This document shows, one piece after another, positions 2,746-13,138 of a DNA stretch of 14,096 nt (its first letter is position 1; every line of letters begins with the position of its first letter). Origin of the DNA: Actinomycetota bacterium. Lineage in GTDB: Bacteria; Actinomycetota; Actinomycetes; Mycobacteriales; Micromonosporaceae. A program made the position numbers and the translations under genes. The stretch lies in NCBI GenBank assembly GCA_005885115.1, contig VAXX01000105.1, positions 1 through 14,096 on the forward strand, read 5' to 3'. The notes below the pieces were generated by a model, which had not been told where the DNA came from, did not search any database, and saw nothing but the letters and a program-made list of their open reading frames with translations.

Positions 2746-4214
2746 GCGCCGCCCAGGGCATGCACGATGCGCTCACCCAGGGGGGTACCGAGGCCGGTGC
2801 AGGCATCCCAGCCGGTACCCGCGTGGTAGCCGCCGTTGTCTCCGCTGGTGATGTCGGTGAAGGCGCTCGGGTTGGCGTACAGGCGTTCGTGCGGGGCACC
2901 GGCCGGGGTGCCGTTGAGCTTGTTGGCGAGCACCGTCAGGCCGGTCCACAGTGGAGCGACCGCACTGGTACCGCCGATGACGAGGTCCTGCCCGTTGACC
3001 CGGACCTGGTACCCGGTCAACGGATCCGCGTCACCGGCCACGTCCGGTACCCCGCGCCCGGGCCTACCGGACGGGTTCGCCGGTACGCCGGCGGAGTTCT
3101 GGTACCCGGGCGGTCCGAAGTGGACACTCACCCCGCCGCCGGTCGCGCCGTGCCCGGTGGCCGTCTCGTTCCAGACCACCTCGCCGGAGTCGTCCAGGCG
3201 GGTACCCCCGCAGCCGACCACGTTCGGGCTGGAGGCCGGGAAGTCGACGTGGTCGCCGGGCCCGGCCCGGTCGGCCGACCCGTCGTCGCCGGCCGCCGCG
3301 TAGACCGTGACGCCGAGGGTGGCCGCGTCGGCGAACAGCGCGTCGTACGCGTCGAGCGCCTGCGCCGTCCAGGTCGGTTCGGCGCCGCCCCAACTGATCG
3401 AGACGACCGAGGGCTTACGGCGGTCGTGCAGGGCGGCGGCGACCGCGTCGTAGAAGCCGCGGGTGGTGTTGGGTGCGAAATACACCACCACGTGTACGCC
3501 GGGCGCCACCGCACCGATCACCTCGATGTCGAGCATCACTTCGGCATCGGCGTCGTCGCCCGGTGCGTTGCGGGCCCCGTCGACGGAGACGGCGGTGACG
3601 GTCGGCGGGGTGATGTCCTGTGCGGTGACGTACTCGGTCAGGTCGGTCCGCCGGTACCCGCCGCCGAGCTCGATGACCGCGACCGTCTGACCACCACCGT
3701 CCACAGTGGACGGAAAGCCGTACCGGGCGGCGATCTGCTGTGGCGGGAAGCCTTTGGCGGCCGCGTGCGGAAACATCACGCCCTCGGCCGGCGGCGCGAT
3801 CACGAAATGCGCCATCGCCTGGGGCCGGTCGTCGAGCCCGAGTACGGCCACCACCCGCCCGGTCAGCTCCGCCGGTACCCGTACCGAGCCCTCCCGACCC
3901 CGGTACGTCCGGTCGTCCAGCGCGTACTCGCCCAGGTCCACCCCGAACGCGGAGTTCATCTGGGTCACCGTGCCGATCAGGCCGATCGAGCGGGCGGCCA
4001 GGTCGACCCGGGTGACCGCGAGCCCGTACCGGTGGGCGAACGTCTCCACAAGTGCGACGTCCTCGGGATCGGCCGGCGCGCCGGGGCGGGGCGCGGCCCG
4101 CCGGAGTACCACGGTCACCTCGACCGGCTGGTGCGGGTACGCGTCGCCGATCCGGCTGGCGCCCGGCGCCGGTACCCGGTGACTGCCCGGGACTACGTGA
4201 TGCTGCTCGGTCAT
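2742..4214 (-). CDS. S53 serine-carboxyl peptidase (kumamolisin-like sedolisin)
   Basis: Endopeptidase of the sedolisin family, usually acid-active and self-activating. Residues 1 to about 155 form the pro-domain (VTVVLRRAAP near 33, FGVDLGEY near 90). The catalytic domain follows. The Glu225/Asp229 pair (AEVMLD) and Ser417 (IGGTSAVAP) form the catalytic triad, and Asp310 (AAAGDDGS) is the oxyanion residue. The C-terminal calcium site is visible as DITSGD (454-459) and GTGWD (466-470). At 490 residues it is close to kumamolisin. ATG 4214 is chosen because the open frame further upstream is only antisense to the nitroreductase, the pro-domain starts here as in relatives, and a -10 box lies 7 nt upstream. 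No signal peptide or membrane segment is visible, so the export route is unclear. It overlaps the lipoprotein gene by 4 nt. Confidence 0.92.
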   Translation of the reverse strand: MTEQHHVVPGSHRVPAPGASRIGDAYPHQPVEVTVVLRRAAPRPGAPADPEDVALVETFAHRYGLAVTRVDLAARSIGLIGTVTQMNSAFGVDLGEYALDDRTYRGREGSVRVPAELTGRVVAVLGLDDRPQAMAHFVIAPPAEGVMFPHAAAKGFPPQQIAARYGFPSTVDGGGQTVAVIELGGGYRRTDLTEYVTAQDITPPTVTAVSVDGARNAPGDDADAEVMLDIEVIGAVAPGVHVVVYFAPNTTRGFYDAVAAALHDRRKPSVVSISWGGAEPTWTAQALDAYDALFADAATLGVTVYAAAGDDGSADRAGPGDHVDFPASSPNVVGCGGTRLDDSGEVVWNETATGHGATGGGVSVHFGPPGYQNSAGVPANPSGRPGRGVPDVAGDADPLTGYQVRVNGQDLVIGGTSAVAPLWTGLTVLANKLNGTPAGAPHERLYANPSAFTDITSGDNGGYHAGTGWDACTGLGTPLGERIVHALGGA

Positions 4215-6717: not shown

Positions 6718-7377
6718 TCAGAACAGGGTGAGCTCGTCGCGGACGACTCCACGCAGGGCGTCGTAGTCGACGACCACACACCGGATCCCCCGGTCCTCGG
6801 CCAGTACCCGGGCCTGTGGCTTGATCTCCTGCGCGGCGAACACCCCGGAGACCGGGGCCAGCAACGGATCCCGGCCGAGCAGGTCGAGGTACCGGGTCAA
6901 CTGCTCAACGCCGTCGATCTCCCCGCGCCGCTTCACCTCGACGGCGACCGTCGCGCCCGCGCCGTCGCGGCAGAGCAGGTCGACCGGACCGATCGCGGTC
7001 GGGTACTCCCGGCGTACCAAGGTGAATCCCGCGCCCAGCGCGACCGGTGACGCGGCGAGCAGCTCCTGCAGGTGTGCCTCGACCCCGTCCTTGCGCAGGC
7101 CGGGGTCGGTGCCCAGCTCGTACGAGCTGTCCTGGAAGACCTCCTCCAGAGTGATCCGCAGTTCCTCGCCGGCCTTGTTGACCACCCGCCAGACGCCGGG
7201 CGCCTCCTCGATGCGGCACGGCGGGCTCATCCAGTTGAGCGGCTTGTACGCGCGGTCGTCCGCGTGGATCGAGACCGACCCGTCCGCCTTGACCATGAGC
7301 AGCCGGGTGGCCGGCGGCAGGTGTGCCGTGAGCCGACCGATGTAGTCCACCGAGCACCGCGCAATCACCAACCGCAC
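6718..7377 (-). CDS. nucS: Mismatch-specific endonuclease NucS/EndoMS
   Basis: Cuts both strands at base mismatches and provides mismatch repair in actinobacteria that lack MutS/MutL. The 219-residue protein is close to the mycobacterial enzyme throughout. The N-terminal DNA-binding domain has [16 protein letters not shown] (38-53), and the linker has [13 protein letters not shown] (91-103). The nuclease domain has Asp133 in GPVDLLCRD and the Glu147/Lys149 pair in VEVKRR, then [13 protein letters not shown]. The end, DELTLF, resembles the beta-clamp-binding tail of the family. The GTG at 7377 is chosen over an ATG 24 nt upstream because the family begins at RLVIA and because a TACCCT box lies 6 nt before this GTG. 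It is divergent from the DUF4126 gene with 53 nt between the start codons. Confidence 0.95.
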
Positions 7378-7383
7378 CCCGCG

Positions 7384-7389
7384 AGGGTA
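7384..7389 (-). promoter_or_regulatory. -10 box TACCCT of leaderless nucS
   Basis: TACCCT on the minus strand ends 6 nt before the GTG at 7377. It is the same hexamer as in front of the S53 peptidase. No ribosome site is present in front of this GTG. I see no clear -35. The region is shared with the divergent DUF4126 promoter. Confidence 0.5.
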
Positions 7390-7430
7390 CCGCTGTGCCA
7401 CGGTGGCGCGGCGGTGCCATGCTGGTACCC

Positions 7431-8045
7431 GTGTTCGAACTGCTCACCGGCATGGGCCTGTCCGCATCGGCTGGCCTCAATGCCTGGATCCCGCTGCTGT
7501 CCGTCGGGCTGCTGTCCCGGTACACCCATCTGATCACGCTGCCGCCCAGCTGGCACTGGCTGTCCAACGGCTGGACGCTGGCGATCCTCGCGGTGCTGCT
7601 GCTGATCGAGATGGTGGCCGACAAGATCCCGGTGGTCGACCATCTCAACGACGTGGTGCACACGGTGATCCGACCGACGGCGGGCGGGCTGGCGTTCGGC
7701 GCGGCGTCGCAGTCGCAGACGGCCACCGTGTCGGATCCCGGACAGTTCTTCAGTGGGCACCAGTGGATCCCCATCGCGGCGGGCGCGGCCATCGCGCTGT
7801 GCGTGCACGGCGTGAAGGCGACGGCACGGCCGGTCGTCAACGCCACGACCCTGGGCATCGGTACGCCGTTCGTGAGCCTCGCCGAGGACGTGCTGAGCGT
7901 GACGATGTCGCTGGTGGCCATCGTCGTACCCATCCTGATCGTGGTCTTCCTGGCCGGGATCGTACTGTTCTTCGTCTGGGTCCGGCGGCGTCGTCGGCGG
8001 CGCAGGGCGGAGAAGCTGGCGGCGCGGCTGGCCCGCGCCGGCTGA
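7431..8045 (+). CDS. DUF4126 family integral membrane protein
   Basis: Membrane protein of 204 residues with no established biochemical role. The N-terminal signature [19 protein letters not shown] (5-23) is typical of DUF4126. Hydrophobic segments lie near 5-28, 46-64, 110-127 and 147-183, the last long enough for two passes. A conserved-looking acidic/polar stretch ([22 protein letters not shown]) sits between segments, and the protein ends in a run of eight arginines followed by a basic tail, presumably cytoplasmic. The GTG at 7431 matches the usual family start; an ATG at 7419 would add four residues and is an alternative. CATGCT ends 7 nt before the GTG and may be a weak -10 box. It is divergent from nucS. 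Confidence 0.85.
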
Positions 8046-8064
8046 TCCCGCCGGCGTGGCCCGC

Positions 8065-8094
8065 GTGACAGGCCGCTGGGACAATCCGGATAAT
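8065..8094 (+). promoter_or_regulatory. Promoter of the three-gene unknown operon
   Basis: GTGACA (8065-8070) and GATAAT (8089-8094) are separated by 18 nt. This is the best consensus-like housekeeping promoter in the window and the most AT-rich short stretch near it. It would give a leader of about 25 nt containing the GGAGGT ribosome site just before the ATG at 8126. Confidence 0.65.
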
Positions 8095-8125
8095 TAGGGC
8101 GCCAGCTCGTCAGTCCGGAGGTCCG

Positions 8126-8758
8126 ATGTCGTCACCGTCCGCGGTCAACCTGCCGTTATCGGAGGTACGCCGGGCGGCGCACGACGTGCACACCGCGAGC
8201 CGCCGGCTGGCGCGGGTACCGGCGTTGGCGGCCGCGCTCGGGCACCTGGACGCCGCGGCCGGGGCGCTGCTCCTGGCCGAACACGCGTTGCAGGGGTACG
8301 CCGTCTCGACCCGGCCACCGCCTCAATCCTCCACTGTGGACACCGCGGTACCGGTGACCTGGTGGACGGCCCGCATCGCCGTCCTGACCGGGGTCCACCC
8401 GTCCCCGGTACCCGCCCCCGACCTGCTCGACGACGCGCTGGCCCGGGCGCAGGACGGGGACCGGGACGGCCTGGCCGCCGTGCTCGCCGGTGCCGACCCG
8501 ACCGACGGGCTCGGGCTCGCCGCCCGGACCGCCCCGTACGTCCAGCACTACGCCGACCGCGCCGAGCGCCCGTCCGCAGCCCTGGACACCGTCCGGGAGC
8601 TGCTGCCCGGGCTGCCGCCGGGAGTGGCCGAGGCGGTCCTCGCCGGTACGCCGGACGGGCCCTGGGACGGGCACCCCGCAGATCGCGCGGTCGCCGGCAC
8701 CGTACTCCTCGCCGGGCTGCTGAGCCTGTTGGGGCACAAGGGGTTGCCCGGTGACTAG
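8126..8758 (+). CDS. Hypothetical protein, first gene of the FtsK-like/membrane operon
   Basis: I recognise no family. The 210 residues are Ala/Leu-rich and probably mainly helical. Residues about 10-60 form a helical region (LSEVRRAAHDVHTASRRLARV, then LAAALGHLDAAAGALLLAEHALQGY). A Pro/Ser linker (RPPPQSSTVDT) follows, then helical segments around 110-170 and a final Leu-rich segment AVAGTVLLAGLLSLLGHKG that is amphipathic or weakly hydrophobic. There is no signal peptide and no cysteine, so it is probably cytoplasmic. The ATG is supported by GGAGGT upstream. Its stop overlaps the GTG of the next gene by 8 nt, so the products are probably made together. The palindrome TCCACTGTGGA lies at 8330-8340 inside the gene. 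Confidence 0.85.
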   Translation: MSSPSAVNLPLSEVRRAAHDVHTASRRLARVPALAAALGHLDAAAGALLLAEHALQGYAVSTRPPPQSSTVDTAVPVTWWTARIAVLTGVHPSPVPAPDLLDDALARAQDGDRDGLAAVLAGADPTDGLGLAARTAPYVQHYADRAERPSAALDTVRELLPGLPPGVAEAVLAGTPDGPWDGHPADRAVAGTVLLAGLLSLLGHKGLPGD

Positions 8759-9557
8759 CCAACGTGCCGCGGTGATCGCCACGGTACGGGAGCAGCTCGC
8801 CGTAGCGCGCTCGGCTGCCCGTACCACGCTGGCCGGCGCCGAGGCCGCGCACTGGCGGGCGCAGGCCGCCCTCGACGCGGCCCGGCTGCGGCTGGCCGCC
8901 GACGAGCCCCGGCTCGCGGTCGAGCGCGCCAACCGGATCGCGGCCGCGCAGACCCGGTACGCCGGGCGGCGCGCCGAACTGGCCGCGGCGCTGGCCATGG
9001 TCGCGCCCGCCGCCGCACCCGGCGCGGCCGGCGAGCCCTGGGCCGGTTGGGCGCCCACGCCCGGTACGCCGCCCGGCCTCTACCGGATCGGCATGCTGTG
9101 CGGGTACGACGTACCGGCGCTCGTGCCCCTGCTGGGCCGGGCCCACCTGACCGTGCACGGTGGCTCGGCGCGCAGCGTCGACGGGTTGATCGCCGGGCTG
9201 CTGCTACGGGTGCTCGGCAGCACCCCGCCCGGTACCGTCCGGATCGACGTGTACGACCCGGACGGGCTGGCGCCCGCGCTCGCCGGGCTGGTCCGCCACC
9301 TCGACGCCGGCGACGTATCCCGGCCGGAGCCGTGGCGCGTCGCCGTACTCCTGGCTCCTCCGGGCGGGGTGGCGTTGGCCGAGCTCGCGCGTACCCGTGG
9401 GGTACACGTGATCGCGAAGGACCTCAGCGTGCCCGGGGCCATCACCGTCCACTTCGGACAGACGGTCACCACCAGCCTCACCGGTACGCTGCCCGTCGCG
9501 CTCGATCCGGTACCGCCGCCGGAGCTGATCCACCGGGCGATGTCCCATGGCCGTTGA
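8751..9557 (+). CDS. Coiled-coil protein resembling the N-terminal half of FtsK/SpoIIIE-like proteins, without ATPase
   Basis: The 268 residues split into an Ala/Arg/Glu-rich coiled coil (1 to about 85) and a globular domain from about 108. The globular part (YRIGML near 111, VPALVPLLGRAHLTVHG at 121-137, then LLLRVLGSTPPGTVRIDVYDP at 150-170, RPEPWRVAVLL at 191-201, GVHVIAKDL at 217-225) resembles, from memory, the region that precedes the motor in actinobacterial FtsK/SpoIIIE-domain proteins. It looks like a degenerate RecA-type fold. No Walker A (GxxxxGKS/T) or Walker B motif is present and the gene stops before a motor domain could begin, so it is not a DNA pump by itself. It overlaps its neighbours by 8 and 11 nt. 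The homology needs a profile search; a scaffold role is speculation. Confidence 0.82.
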   Translation: MTSQRAAVIATVREQLAVARSAARTTLAGAEAAHWRAQAALDAARLRLAADEPRLAVERANRIAAAQTRYAGRRAELAAALAMVAPAAAPGAAGEPWAGWAPTPGTPPGLYRIGMLCGYDVPALVPLLGRAHLTVHGGSARSVDGLIAGLLLRVLGSTPPGTVRIDVYDPDGLAPALAGLVRHLDAGDVSRPEPWRVAVLLAPPGGVALAELARTRGVHVIAKDLSVPGAITVHFGQTVTTSLTGTLPVALDPVPPPELIHRAMSHGR

Positions 9558-10158
9558 CGAGTACGGGCTGCTCTGCACCGAACTGGCCAGCGCGACCGCA
9601 CAGCGGGACGCCGACGTCAGGGCGGCTGAACAATCCTATGTGGACTGTGTCGCGGCGCTCACCGCCGACATCACCTCGGCCGAGGCGGCGCTGTCCACTG
9701 TGGACATTCAGGTACGGGCGGCCCGGCGCCGCGTCGGCCGGATCGACGCCCACGCCACCACGTTGTGGGGCCGGGCGGCGGACGTACTCGGTCGCCGGGT
9801 CGGTGCCCTGCCCGGTCCCATCCTGTCCACCGTGGACGCCGAGCCGGCGACGGCGTTGCGGCAAGTGGATACCGTGCTGCGTCGGTACCGGCTGGGCCCG
9901 GTACCGGTCCGCCTGCCCAGGCGGTTCGTCGTGGCGCTCCCGCTGCTCGGTGCCGTCGGCGCGGTACCGGTCGTCGGCGCCGGACACGCGCTCGGGATCG
10001 GGCTGCTGAGCCTGGTCCTGGCTCCGTTTCCCGGGCTGCTCGCCGCGCGTACCCTCGCCCACCGCCGGTACGCGGGCTGGCTCGATGTCGGTGCCGTCGC
10101 GCTGACCGTGTTCGGCGCCCTGCTCGGGGCCGGTGCGGCGCTCGTCATGACGAGCTGA
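9547..10158 (+). CDS. Coiled-coil protein with C-terminal membrane segments, unknown function
   Basis: I recognise no family. Of 203 residues, 1-80 are predicted coiled coil (ELASATAQRDADVRAAEQS, TSAEAALSTVDIQVRAARRR). A middle region contains STVDAEPATALRQVDTVLRRY. After a basic stretch, PVRLPRRF, come hydrophobic segments at about 127-145, 148-168 and 179-200, ending two residues from the C-terminus. It is therefore a membrane protein with a long cytoplasmic coiled coil, a shape suited to tethering. The ATG at 9547 overlaps the end of the FtsK-like gene by 11 nt, and the 3' end overlaps ethylmalonyl-CoA mutase by 14 nt tail to tail. The two upstream products, one of them also coiled-coil, are likely partners. 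TCCACNGTGGA palindromes lie at 9694-9704 and 9826-9836. Confidence 0.84.
   Translation: MAVDEYGLLCTELASATAQRDADVRAAEQSYVDCVAALTADITSAEAALSTVDIQVRAARRRVGRIDAHATTLWGRAADVLGRRVGALPGPILSTVDAEPATALRQVDTVLRRYRLGPVPVRLPRRFVVALPLLGAVGAVPVVGAGHALGIGLLSLVLAPFPGLLAARTLAHRRYAGWLDVGAVALTVFGALLGAGAALVMTS
10141..10154. repeat. Perfect 14-bp palindrome at convergent stops
   Basis: CTCGTCATGACGAG is its own reverse complement. It covers the overlapping 3' ends of the coiled-coil membrane protein gene and the mutase gene. It codes in both directions, so it may be partly forced by coding, or it may help end transcription on both strands. Confidence 0.6.
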
Positions 10159-12136
10159 GGCCGGCCGCCTCGCGGACCACCGTCACGAGGTCGTCGATGA
10201 TCCCGGTGAGCCCGAAGTCCTTGGGCGTGAACACCCGCGCGACGCCGGCCGCGCGCAGCTTCGTCTCGTCCCCGGCCGGGATGATCCCGCCGACCACCAC
10301 CGGTACGTCGGCCAGGCCGGCCGCCCGTAGCCCGTCGAGCACCGCCGGTACCGCCGCGAGGTGCGAGCCGGACAGCACCGAGAGCCCGACAATGTTGACG
10401 TCCTCGGCGACCGCTGCGGCGACGATCTGCTCCGGGGTGAGCCGGATCCCCTGGTACACCACCTCGAAACCGGCGTCCCGTGCCCGTACCGCGATCTGCT
10501 CCGCGCCGTTGGAGTGCCCGTCCAGGCCGGGCTTGCCCACGAGTATCCGCAGCCGGCCGAGCCCGAGCTCGGCGGCGGTACGGGCGACCCGGGCGCGGAC
10601 GTCGGCCAAGGAGGCGTCGCCGGAGGCACCCGATGAGGCGGACAGGCCGGTCGGCGCCCGGTACTCCCCGAACACCTCGCGCAGTGCCCCGGACCACTCC
10701 CCCGTCGTCACGCCGGCCCGGACACAGTCGAGCGTCGCCGGCATCAGGTTGGTCGAGGTGGCCGCATCGGACGTCAAGCGTGCCAACGCTTCCACGACCG
10801 CCGACGCCGAACGGGACGCCCGCCAGGACGCGAGTGAAGCGACAGCGGCGGCCTCCACCGCCGGGTCGACCTGTTCGATCGCCTCCGCGCCGGCGGCGGT
10901 CAGCGGGGACGGTTCGGTCTCGGTGAACCGGTTGACCCCGACCACGACGTCCTCGCCGGCCTCCAGGCGCTGCCGTTTGCGGGCCAGCGACGAGACCAGC
11001 GCGCTCTTGAGGTACCCGCTCTCCACGGCCGCCACGATCCCGCCCTGGTCGAGGATCTGGGTCAGCTCGGTACGCGCACCGTCCACAATGGACCCGACAA
11101 GCTGGGCCACCACCGGTGAACCGTCGAACAGGTCCGGGTACTCCAGCAGGTCCGACTCGTACGCGAGCACCTGCTGCAACCGCAGCGACCACTGCTGGTC
11201 CCACGGCCGGGGCAGCCCGAGCGCCTCGTTCCAGGCGGGAAGCTGTACGGCCCGGGCGCGCGCCGAGCGGGACAGCGTGACGCCGAGCATCTCCAGCACG
11301 ATGCGCGCCACGTTGTTCTCCGGCTGCGCCTCGGTCAGGCCGAGCGAGTTGACCTGCACCCCGTACCGGAAACGCCGTTGCTTCTCGGAAGTGACGCCGT
11401 AGCGGGTCAGCGTGATCTCGTCCCACAGCAGCGCGAAGGCCCGCATCTTCGCCATCTCCTCGACGAAGCGCACGCCCGCGTTGACGAAGAAGGAGATCCG
11501 CGCGACCACCTCCCCGATCGGGAGTTCGGGCGAGGCGGCCCGCACGGCGTCGAGAACGGCGACCGCCGTCGCGAGCGCGAACCCGACCTCCTGCACCGGC
11601 GTCGCCCCGGCCTCCTGCAGATGGTACGAGCAGATGTTGACCGGGTTCCACTTCGGCAGGTTCGTTACGGCGTAGGCGATCGTGTCCGCGATCAGCCGCA
11701 GCGAGGGCCCGGGTGGGAAGATGTACGTCCCCCGGGACAGGTACTCCTTGACGATGTCGTTCTGCGTCGTGCCGGCAAGCGTAGCCAGCGACGCCCCTTG
11801 CTCGGATGCGACAACGACATACAGCGCCAGCATCCACATCGCCGGCGCGTTGATCGTCATCGAGGTATTGGCATCCACCAAGGGGATGCTGTCGAACAAC
11901 GCCCGCATGTCGCCCAGGTGCGCCACCGGCACCCCGACCCGGCCGACCTCACCCCGGGCCAGCTCGTGGTCCGGGTCGTACCCGGTCTGGGTGGGCAGGT
12001 CGAACGCGACCGACAGGCCGGTCTGCCCCTTGGCCAGGTTGCGCCGGAACAGCGCGTTGCTGGCCGCCGCCGAGGAGTGCCCCGCGTAGGTACGCATCAC
12101 CCAGGGCCGGTCCGGCGGGTCCAGTCGGTACGCCAT
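10145..12136 (-). CDS. ecm: Ethylmalonyl-CoA mutase (MeaA-type, coenzyme B12-dependent)
   Basis: Converts (2R)-ethylmalonyl-CoA to methylsuccinyl-CoA in the ethylmalonyl-CoA pathway, using adenosylcobalamin. The 663 residues match the MeaA/Ecm type: DRPWVMRTYAGHS at 9-21, AKGQTGLSVAFDLPTQTGYD from 35, TTQNDIVKEYLSRGT in the barrel, NICSYHLQEAGATPVQE, QVNSLGLTEAQPENN, and the strongly conserved LPRPWDQQWSLR. The fused C-terminal cobalamin domain starts near 527 with DGHSNG, in which His541 is the lower axial ligand, followed by LSGSH and GGIIP. Methylmalonyl-CoA mutase subunits are longer and differ in these blocks, and isobutyryl-CoA mutase keeps its B12 domain on a separate chain. ATG 12136 has TACGCT 7 nt upstream, as for the other leaderless genes here. 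Usual pathway partners are not adjacent, but 3-hydroxyacyl-CoA dehydrogenases lie at both window edges. Confidence 0.93.
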   Translation of the reverse strand: MAYRLDPPDRPWVMRTYAGHSSAAASNALFRRNLAKGQTGLSVAFDLPTQTGYDPDHELARGEVGRVGVPVAHLGDMRALFDSIPLVDANTSMTINAPAMWMLALYVVVASEQGASLATLAGTTQNDIVKEYLSRGTYIFPPGPSLRLIADTIAYAVTNLPKWNPVNICSYHLQEAGATPVQEVGFALATAVAVLDAVRAASPELPIGEVVARISFFVNAGVRFVEEMAKMRAFALLWDEITLTRYGVTSEKQRRFRYGVQVNSLGLTEAQPENNVARIVLEMLGVTLSRSARARAVQLPAWNEALGLPRPWDQQWSLRLQQVLAYESDLLEYPDLFDGSPVVAQLVGSIVDGARTELTQILDQGGIVAAVESGYLKSALVSSLARKRQRLEAGEDVVVGVNRFTETEPSPLTAAGAEAIEQVDPAVEAAAVASLASWRASRSASAVVEALARLTSDAATSTNLMPATLDCVRAGVTTGEWSGALREVFGEYRAPTGLSASSGASGDASLADVRARVARTAAELGLGRLRILVGKPGLDGHSNGAEQIAVRARDAGFEVVYQGIRLTPEQIVAAAVAEDVNIVGLSVLSGSHLAAVPAVLDGLRAAGLADVPVVVGGIIPAGDETKLRAAGVARVFTPKDFGLTGIIDDLVTVVREAAGLSSS

Positions 12137-12143
12137 GCCTCGC

Positions 12144-12173
12144 AGCGTACTGAACGGTAGCTTAGGGTGTCCG
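12144..12173 (-). promoter_or_regulatory. Promoter of ethylmalonyl-CoA mutase, leaderless
   Basis: On the minus strand CGGACA (12173-12168) and TACGCT (12149-12144) are 18 nt apart, and 7 nt separate TACGCT from the ATG at 12136. The purine stretch GCGAGG ends only 1 nt before the ATG, too close to work as a ribosome site, so a leaderless mRNA is the better reading. Confidence 0.52.
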
Positions 12174-12206
12174 GTGAGTTCGGTCACCGCCCAGAAATCC
12201 ACCCGG

Positions 12207-12241
12207 GGGTGCATGCGGGTCCACCTACGCGTGGTGCACCC
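12207..12241. promoter_or_regulatory. Nested inverted repeat upstream of the ABC transporter
   Basis: GGGTGCA (12207-12213) pairs with TGCACCC (12235-12241). Inside it CCAC (12221-12224) pairs with GTGG (12231-12234), so the right arm is continuous and the left arm has a 7-nt bulge. It overlaps a possible -10 box, CACCCT (12237-12242). It could be an operator for a regulator of the exporter or an RNA hairpin. Confidence 0.4.
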
Positions 12242-12248
12242 TGACGGC

Positions 12249-12290
12249 ATGAGCGACGACGCGTTCTCCTCAGCGGAGGAGCCAACATGA
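12249..12290 (+). CDS. Possible 13-residue leader peptide of the ABC transporter operon
   Basis: A short frame, MSDDAFSSAEEPT, starts at ATG 12249 and ends in a TGA that overlaps the ABC ATPase start as ATGA. CACCCT lies 6 nt before its ATG, the spacing seen for other leaderless genes in this window, so an mRNA from that box would start on this frame. The ribosome site of the ATPase gene lies inside it. If translated it would couple initiation of the transporter. Its length gives no statistical support. Confidence 0.25.
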   Translation: MSDDAFSSAEEPT

Positions 12291-13138
12291 CAGCCGAACC
12301 CGCGATCCGCGTCCGTGGATTGCGCAAGACCTATGGGCACCACGTCGCGGTCGAGGGGCTCGACCTCGAGGTCCACCGGGGCGAGTGCTTCGCGCTGCTC
12401 GGGCCCAACGGGGCCGGCAAGACGACCACGGTCGAGATCCTGGAGGGGTACCGCCCGCGCAGCGCCGGCGAGGTGAGCGTGCTCGGCCTGGACCCGGCCC
12501 ACCCGACCCGCGACTGGCGGGCCCGGGTCGGCATCGTGCTCCAGTCGATCGGCGAGTTCGAGGCCCTGACCGTACGCGAGGTGGTCAGCCACTTCGCCCG
12601 CTACTACCCGGCGCCGCGCGACCCGGACGAGGTCATCGTCTCGGTCGGCCTGGCCGCCAAGGCGACGGCGCGCACCGGCAACCTGTCCGGCGGCCAGCGC
12701 CGCCGGCTCGACGTCGCGCTCGGCATGATCGGCCGCCCGGAACTGCTGTTCCTCGACGAGCCGACGACCGGCTTCGATCCCGAGGCGCGCCAGGAGTTCT
12801 GGGAGCTGATCCGTGGCCTGTCCGCGGAAGGTACCACCATCCTGCTGACCACCCACTACCTCTACGAGGCCGAGGCGCTCGCGCACCGGGTCGGGGTCAT
12901 CGCCGCCGGCCGGATGCTGGAGGTCGCGACCCCGGCGACGCTGGGCGGGCGGGCCGACGCCGCGACCCTGGTCAGCTGGGACGGCCCGGACGGCCGCGAA
13001 TCAACGGCAACCGATACGCCGACCGCCGAGGTGGCCAAGCTCGCCGCGCGCTTCGGCGGCGAGGTGCCCGGGCTCACGGTCGCGCGGCCCACGTTGGAGG
13101 ACATCTATCTCGCGATGATCAGCAAGGAGTCGCAATGA
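12287..13138 (+). CDS. ABC transporter ATP-binding protein (DrrA-like exporter family)
   Basis: ATPase subunit that powers the ABC-2 permease encoded next to it, probably for export of a small molecule or drug. The 283 residues show Walker A GPNGAGKT at 39-46, the Q-loop glutamine Gln86, the signature LSGGQ at 133-137, Walker B LLFLDEP with Asp157/Glu158, the D-loop GFDP, and the H-loop His190. A C-terminal extension of about 75 residues (after VIAAGRM) ends in PTLEDIYLAMI, the usual tail of DrrA-type proteins. The ATG at 12287 follows GGAGGAG at suitable spacing. Its TGA overlaps the permease ATG (ATGA). The family is certain; the cargo is unknown. Confidence 0.94.
   Translation: MTAEPAIRVRGLRKTYGHHVAVEGLDLEVHRGECFALLGPNGAGKTTTVEILEGYRPRSAGEVSVLGLDPAHPTRDWRARVGIVLQSIGEFEALTVREVVSHFARYYPAPRDPDEVIVSVGLAAKATARTGNLSGGQRRRLDVALGMIGRPELLFLDEPTTGFDPEARQEFWELIRGLSAEGTTILLTTHYLYEAEALAHRVGVIAAGRMLEVATPATLGGRADAATLVSWDGPDGRESTATDTPTAEVAKLAARFGGEVPGLTVARPTLEDIYLAMISKESQ

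Follow-up and report, generated by a model that had tools for sequence, protein, structure and literature searches.

In the SmeA-SffA system of Streptomyces, a small membrane protein places an FtsK-like ATPase. The DUF of the type VII ATPase EccC, which has no catalytic activity and belongs to the fold class of the domain described here, is presented in the available part of the source as pivotal for secretion and possibly hexamerising (PMC11154593). We analyzed a stretch of 14,096 bases, hereafter the window, which is a whole contig (VAXX01000105.1) from a fragmented genome of the Micromonosporaceae (GCA_005885115.1; 607 contigs, 77.7 per cent complete) and holds an operon of three overlapping open reading frames, ORF1 to ORF3. 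This operon is probably a derivative, deprived of its motor and located at the usual chromosomal site, of a cassette that related soil bacteria carry and that is widespread in the host family. The established part of this reading consists of homology, synteny, the missing motor, an intact paralogue in another assembly and the predicted fold of ORF2.

The reduced operon and the intact cassette

The three frames are open, encode 210, 268 and 203 aa and overlap by 8 nt (ORF1/ORF2) and 11 nt (ORF2/ORF3). Their third-codon GC is 0.91, 0.89 and 0.86, respectively, with 0.91 in the neighbouring DUF4126 gene, values typical of genes. The features of the operon are as follows:

8126..8758, + strand: ORF1, helical protein, shorter than its counterpart in relatives, whose gene lies immediately ahead of the ATPase gene (searches, synteny, alignment)
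8751..9557, + strand: ORF2, GTG start, a long helix, then the RecA-like domain that precedes the motor in an EccC-like ATPase; the motor itself is absent (searches, alignment, model)
9547..10158, + strand: ORF3, helical at the N-terminus, with about three membrane passes towards the C-terminus (searches, hydrophobicity, synteny)
8754..9014, + strand: ORF2 residues 2-88, a single long helix resembling a stalk or coiled coil (model m2e678cca8ec0; no coiled-coil program score)
9063..9554, + strand: ORF2 residues 105-268, degenerate RecA-like domain (model and fold comparison)
9318..9323, + strand: point (residues 190/191) at which 42 residues are missing, in frame, from the pre-motor domain (alignments; model confidence is low around the gap)
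9534..9557, + strand: end of ORF2, where relatives run on into linker and motor (alignment, synteny, sequence)
8065..8094, + strand: sigma-70-like promoter site GTGACA-18-GATAAT (consensus scan, 10/12 matches; not evidence of function)
8117..8121, + strand: GGAGG, ribosome-binding-like site preceding ORF1 (sequence around the start)

Much of the initial annotation was borne out by these data. It had described three genes overlapping by 8 and 11 nt behind one good promoter, and the promoter-like site is indeed the sole match in positions 7900-10300 (shuffles gave 0.0, sd 0.1). It could name no characterised family, and none of ORF1, ORF2 and ORF3 reached a Pfam or NCBIfam cut-off. The hydrophobic stretches of ORF3, which lie within residues 125-171 and 176-203, fit the about three C-terminal membrane passes that it had proposed. 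Its view of the middle product as resembling the region before an FtsK/SpoIIIE motor, with a degenerate RecA-like domain and no Walker motifs, agrees with searches, alignment, model and fold comparison; the Walker A and Walker B patterns were not matched in any of the three proteins. A defence-system library likewise gave no match to ORF1-ORF3, whereas the intact relatives gave motor-type matches.

The identification of ORF2 as the RecA-like pre-motor region of an FtsK/SpoIIIE-type protein without Walker motifs is thus supported, as far as sequence and a predicted model can carry it. The model consists of a single 87-residue helix followed by an alpha/beta domain, with a mean pLDDT of 85.8 that was favoured by the alignment of intact, motor-bearing relatives. 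In the fold comparison it matched the stalk-DUF of EccC5, and with respect to the RecA-like fold there was a tie with FtsK. The profile of the family's pre-motor domain matched the Walker-B half of the family's own motor with a probability of 66, no match across the domain was obtained with EccC proteins by sequence, and the C-terminal domain of the intact proteins did not match the motor. Alignment with the relatives revealed that ORF2 stops at the start of the linker to the motor and that its internal gaps keep the reading frame. The 42-residue gap might be taken as damage, but in G030 an intact ATPase at site A is shorter by about 30 residues in the same region; the gap by itself thus need not mean damage, and pure decay becomes slightly less likely.

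Among 101 related genomes (own genome counted), relatives of ORF1, ORF2 and ORF3 were present in 21, 47 and 31, respectively. All frames matching ORF2 in this set were at least 861 aa long, except for the window, a paralogue on contig C369 of the same genome (580 aa) and G020:C27 (212 aa), where the match begins 96 bases from the contig start. An ORF2-like match was found in 321/354 genomes of the family, with G132:C57, which ends at a contig end, as the sole further short frame among the matches listed. ORF2 corresponds to the N-terminal part of these proteins, which proved to be fused to an FtsK_SpoIIIE motor (two were scanned with Pfam), a point that the initial annotation had raised. The Walker A motif GPSGxGKTN was present in 111/113 listed intact relatives, mostly retrieved with a site-B query, 107/120 intact relatives were 850-950 aa long, and a 19-residue hydropathy above 2.0 occurred in only 1/113, so that these proteins look soluble.

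The gene order was compared with profiles built from the relatives' loci and the window. At 29 uncut ATPase loci, hand-chosen among the matches, ORF3 adjoined in 28, ORF1 in 24 and a helical gene of about 90 aa in 24, with a contig edge before the small-gene position at L054. ORF3 matches lay downstream of the ORF2-like stretch in 35/35 cases and ORF1 matches directly upstream in 20/22, and the distance from the ORF2-like to the ORF3 match was 1605-2570 nt in 34 cases but -7 nt in the window. Judged by gene order and sequence, the intact cassette is composed of a small helical gene, ORF1, a predicted soluble ATPase and the predicted membrane protein ORF3. The ATPase runs from a long helix through a non-catalytic pre-motor domain and an active EccC/FtsK-type motor to a C-terminal domain. 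ORF2 shares with the cassette ATPases the N-terminal long helix, the pre-motor domain and the position between ORF1 and ORF3; with its 268 aa, it lacks the motor and C-terminal domain that these carry in the same protein. The linkage of the three genes claimed earlier therefore stands, but they are not a self-standing operon; they are a reduced form of the four-gene cassette. The loss of the motor, the fourth gene and the kinship to EccC had been missed. A pattern search for relatives in genome contigs gave 262 matches, none of them confirmed; no cassette part other than the motor reached a curated family cut-off among the proteins scanned, and no paper describing the cassette was found in a literature search.

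The flanks define the chromosomal site, referred to as site A:

7395..8045, + strand: DUF4126 protein, bounding the conserved site on the left (PF13548, 1.9e-53; synteny)
6718..7401, - strand: endonuclease NucS, flank (NF002876, 3.1e-117)
10145..12886, - strand: methylmalonyl-CoA-mutase family protein, right border (PF01642, 2.9e-129; synteny); the homologous part is 10157-12127 and the true start is probably internal

The cassette adjoins DUF4126 as in the window in 13 uncut relatives, all of which have the motor. In genomes without an ORF2 match, 14 further DUF4126 regions were examined. DUF4126 was directly followed by the mutase in G001 (a genus mate), G003, G009, G028 and G044 and by an ABC gene in G016 and G039, while other sequence separated DUF4126 and mutase in G023 and G053; four regions had no matched mutase and that of G006 was cut. 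The site can therefore be empty, and the window cassette sits at the usual site, where, by comparison with its relatives, it appears without motor, C-terminal domain and small gene.

As a separate observation, a near-palindromic 11-mer, TCCACTGTGGA, occurs four times in the window (0.00 expected), at 2945-2955 (-), 3700-3710 (-), 8330-8340 (+) and 9694-9704 (+). Genome-wide counts were 204 in the own genome, 366 in G001, 404 in G006 and 205 in G003, as well as 304 in G064 (another family), 80 in G008 and 32 in G010; the other 14/21 genomes had 0-6 copies, the reversed control gave 0-2, and a literature search on the 11-mer found no explanation.

The motor and the small gene of the intact cassette

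The earlier assignment to FtsK was right about the type of domain but not about its nearest kin. Compared with NCBIfam, an intact protein matched EccCa (1.6e-20), EssC (2.7e-15) and FtsK (4.3e-4), all far below the cut-offs, and among solved structures EccC (3.8e-25), YukB (1.6e-18) and FtsK (5.5e-7). The motor profile scored 53-62 bits (best domain) with five EccC-type proteins and 18-32 bits with six FtsK-type proteins of the own genome and relatives, where the EccC type was assigned by repeated motor domains (4/5 also with EccD on the same contig) and the FtsK type by a single motor and a length of 834-889 aa, without a family scan. By these scores, the intact motor is nearer to type VII EccC than to FtsK. 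EccC-annotated FtsK/SpoIIIE proteins are listed for Micromonospora lupini, none of them assignable as the cassette ATPase from the available part of the source (PMC4182475).

No EccD match was present within 100 kb of the core cassette in 14 genomes, and the ATPases of a distant branch in G009 and G016 are located about 10-15 kb from an EccD. In the genus mate (L095, G001:C160, 895-9358), a distant relative of the cassette ATPase (39 per cent) has for neighbours a mycosin-like protease (TIGR03921, 1.7e-73, 247.8 bits with a cut-off of 278.75), a small helical gene and a protein that weakly matches WXG100_2 (19 of 27 bits); on this gene content, the region may be a type VII-like cluster.

The small proteins of the intact cassette are weakly WXG100-like in sequence. 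A WXG100 profile gave weak matches (E up to 0.1) in 15/23 of them, the best being 8.5e-5, and the one scored against the Pfam WXG100 cut-off reached 13.6 of 27.3 bits. Profile comparison of the small protein with WXG100 gave a probability of 48 and a score of 25.1 (21 and 21.6 the reverse way), compared with at most 13.7 in 60 column shuffles. The N-terminus of ORF1 found nothing with the WXG100 profile (probability 2.8) and matched the small-protein profile with a probability of 37. Given the absence of EccD from the surroundings of the core cassettes and the weak likeness of the small protein to WXG100, the system is named EccC-like rather than a type VII system.

Retention or decay of the three genes

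The same genome carries a second cassette on contig C369 with small gene, ORF1, ATPase and part of ORF3 (L036, G000:C369). Its ATPase frame (1897-2880 and 392-1933) is interrupted where the pre-motor domain meets the motor, which is also the boundary at which ORF2 stops. An unbroken counterpart of 862 aa, P0011, exists in another assembly and differs from the C369 ATPase in 2/313 residues before and 1/509 after the break.

With this paralogue at hand, ORF1-ORF3 may still be made and may join the intact ATPase as inactive subunits, brake or membrane dock, a tentative reading to which, on sequence grounds, we assign a little less than an even chance. Site-A cassettes without small gene and ORF1 were detected in four other genomes (L038, L042, L045 and L087 in G030, G038, G007 and G047), each of which has a complete second cassette elsewhere (L085, L086, L090 and L088, respectively). 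Nine genomes have a complete site-A cassette adjoining DUF4126, and two of these (G020 and G052) show a further ORF2 match on a different contig. The numbers are small, but on them the window looks like one more case of a reduced copy at site A in a genome that also has a complete one. Three other metagenome records contain close relatives of ORF3 (62-68 per cent over about 60 residues). ORF2 also forms a clade (support 99/98; end branches 0.30 and 0.19, median 0.29) with P0002, a protein of 335 aa that is 56-67 per cent identical to ORF2 and lies on a 1388-base contig with no neighbour listed; the protein-cluster search admitted proteins of up to 469 aa, and full-length site-A motors nearest to this clade may be missed. 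The EccC DUF is an example of a dead domain of this fold class that is described as pivotal for secretion. The features that speak against retention, namely the gap, the shortening of ORF1 and reduced identity, are those expected from decay.

Pure decay would make of the three ORFs a remnant without function that is being lost and has stayed open so far through high GC and recency. This is a reading that we would sooner doubt than adopt, even though it accounts for several observations. The site is empty in the genus mate and four further genomes, ORF1 is shortened and ORF2 has the 42-residue gap. Compared by the median identity of the window protein to site-A orthologues and the median among orthologues (9 to 16 sequences each), the three products fall below the usual level (ORF1 0.34/0.39, ORF2 0.39/0.45, ORF3 0.33/0.38), while NucS (0.85/0.85) and mutase (0.79/0.79) are unchanged and ABC (0.71/0.72) and DUF4126 (0.61/0.64) are close. 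In an alignment including site-A proteins, which replaced a mostly site-B alignment, ORF2 kept 37/45 of the columns that are 90 per cent conserved, with 10 gaps (P0002: 50/55), and was below 28/29 intact proteins; only G095 (0.60) was lower, followed upwards by G014 and G030 (0.84) and G019 (0.91), the rest reaching 0.94-1.00. One ORF1 variant, P0131, has 92 aa and is nearly identical to the C-terminal part; it is on a contig of 3292 bases and apparently begins at a GTG inside the window gene, which may reflect either a strain whose ORF1 is disrupted or the end of a contig. On the other hand, the overlapping frames, promoter-like site and ribosome-binding-like site are all intact, the gaps in ORF2 are in frame, with the intact G030 ATPase similarly short, and the modeled ORF2 folds, with the bias stated above. 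Identity has dropped only mildly. In the columns that are 80 per cent conserved, six intact proteins (G012, G014, G019, G030, G052 and G095) score no higher than ORF2 (54/66 or 0.82, 18 gaps; P0002 0.82), and the population variants of ORF1 and ORF3 (P0132 and P0133) keep full length with few residues changed. Taken as sequence evidence, the pattern is one of mild relaxation, not free drift, and appears compatible with decay or a new role.

A more specific proposal seems somewhat unlikely to us. In it, ORF1-ORF2-ORF3 would be a module under selection and without ATPase, built on an EccC-DUF-like domain that has been set free together with its stalk helix and membrane partner, and would dock or throttle the motor of the paralogue; the module would belong to a soluble EccC-like cassette system, as yet undescribed, that most family genomes carry. 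A DNA-handling FtsK/SpoIIIE machinery for chromosome segregation or conjugation, in place of a secretion-type ATPase, is unlikely: the motor belongs to PF01580 (FtsK_SpoIIIE), the fold comparison ties with FtsK and NucS adjoins site A, but the motor scores are nearer to EccC and NucS was matched at site-A loci only, not at other cassettes.

An identical 268-aa ORF2 (P0001) represents a cluster of nine sequences, the longest contig having 6056 bases, and near-twins of ORF1 and ORF3 occur on further contigs; all these contigs, as well as that of P0011, may share samples or reads with the window bin. P0001 and P0011 together speak for a real loss of the motor at site A and for a C369 break that is a matter of assembly or strain. 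A motor dropped in assembling the metagenome bin is very improbable, since against the fragmentation of the bin and the C369 break, mended in another assembly, stand these possibly read-sharing twins, the overlap of the ORF2 stop with the ORF3 start and a second, internal gap in ORF2.

For the motor-deleted derivative that we favour, membrane docking, substrate and any present role are what we infer. In the intact form, ORF3 would hold the soluble EccC-like ATPase at the membrane via the ATPase helix and the pre-motor domain, and the motor, coupled through the latter, would move or remodel a protein (or DNA). The small protein and ORF1 would serve as its substrate or adaptor, possibly being exported or remodelled. 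Having lost motor, C-terminal domain and small gene, the window form could perform no ATP-driven step alone. At most, ORF1, the pre-motor domain and ORF3 would assemble into a complex that is tethered to the membrane and has no ATPase. This remainder would either decay or combine with the intact paralogue, in which it would be an inactive subunit, a brake or a membrane dock. An effect of its products on the paralogue, by poisoning, docking or tuning it, seems to us about as likely as no effect at all. The separate motor suspected in the initial annotation could possibly be this paralogue, working with ORF1-ORF3; for the role in cell-envelope or chromosome positioning suggested there, none of the results obtained gave any indication. 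A motor-deleted copy beside an intact one tells which cassette parts can stand apart, and lets the role of the pre-motor domain itself be asked, a question also open for EccC, in a cassette that is common in the family yet, within the literature searched, uncharacterised.

Comparison with known systems

WXG100 (Esx) proteins resemble the small protein of the cassette, which is helical and 86-90 aa long, in the weak profile match and in a profile alignment that superposes the turns. They differ in the W-x-G, present in 2/23 small proteins as opposed to 27/30 WXG100 proteins of relatives, and in the YxxxD/E tail, a pattern given in the available part of PMC3935865 and found in none of the 23. 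FtsK/SpoIIIE translocases share the Pfam family of the motor and tie in the RecA-like fold of ORF2, whereas the cassette motor is farther from them in sequence than from EccC. SmeA-SffA, placed beside the cassette by description only, is similar in having a membrane partner encoded next to an FtsK-family ATPase. The closest likeness is to EccC/EssC, with a non-catalytic domain before an active motor, the nearest motor by sequence and the stalk-DUF of EccC5 matching the ORF2 model. In contrast to these, the intact cassette relatives are mostly 850-950 aa long, soluble-looking and without EccD nearby, and ORF2 is devoid of any motor.
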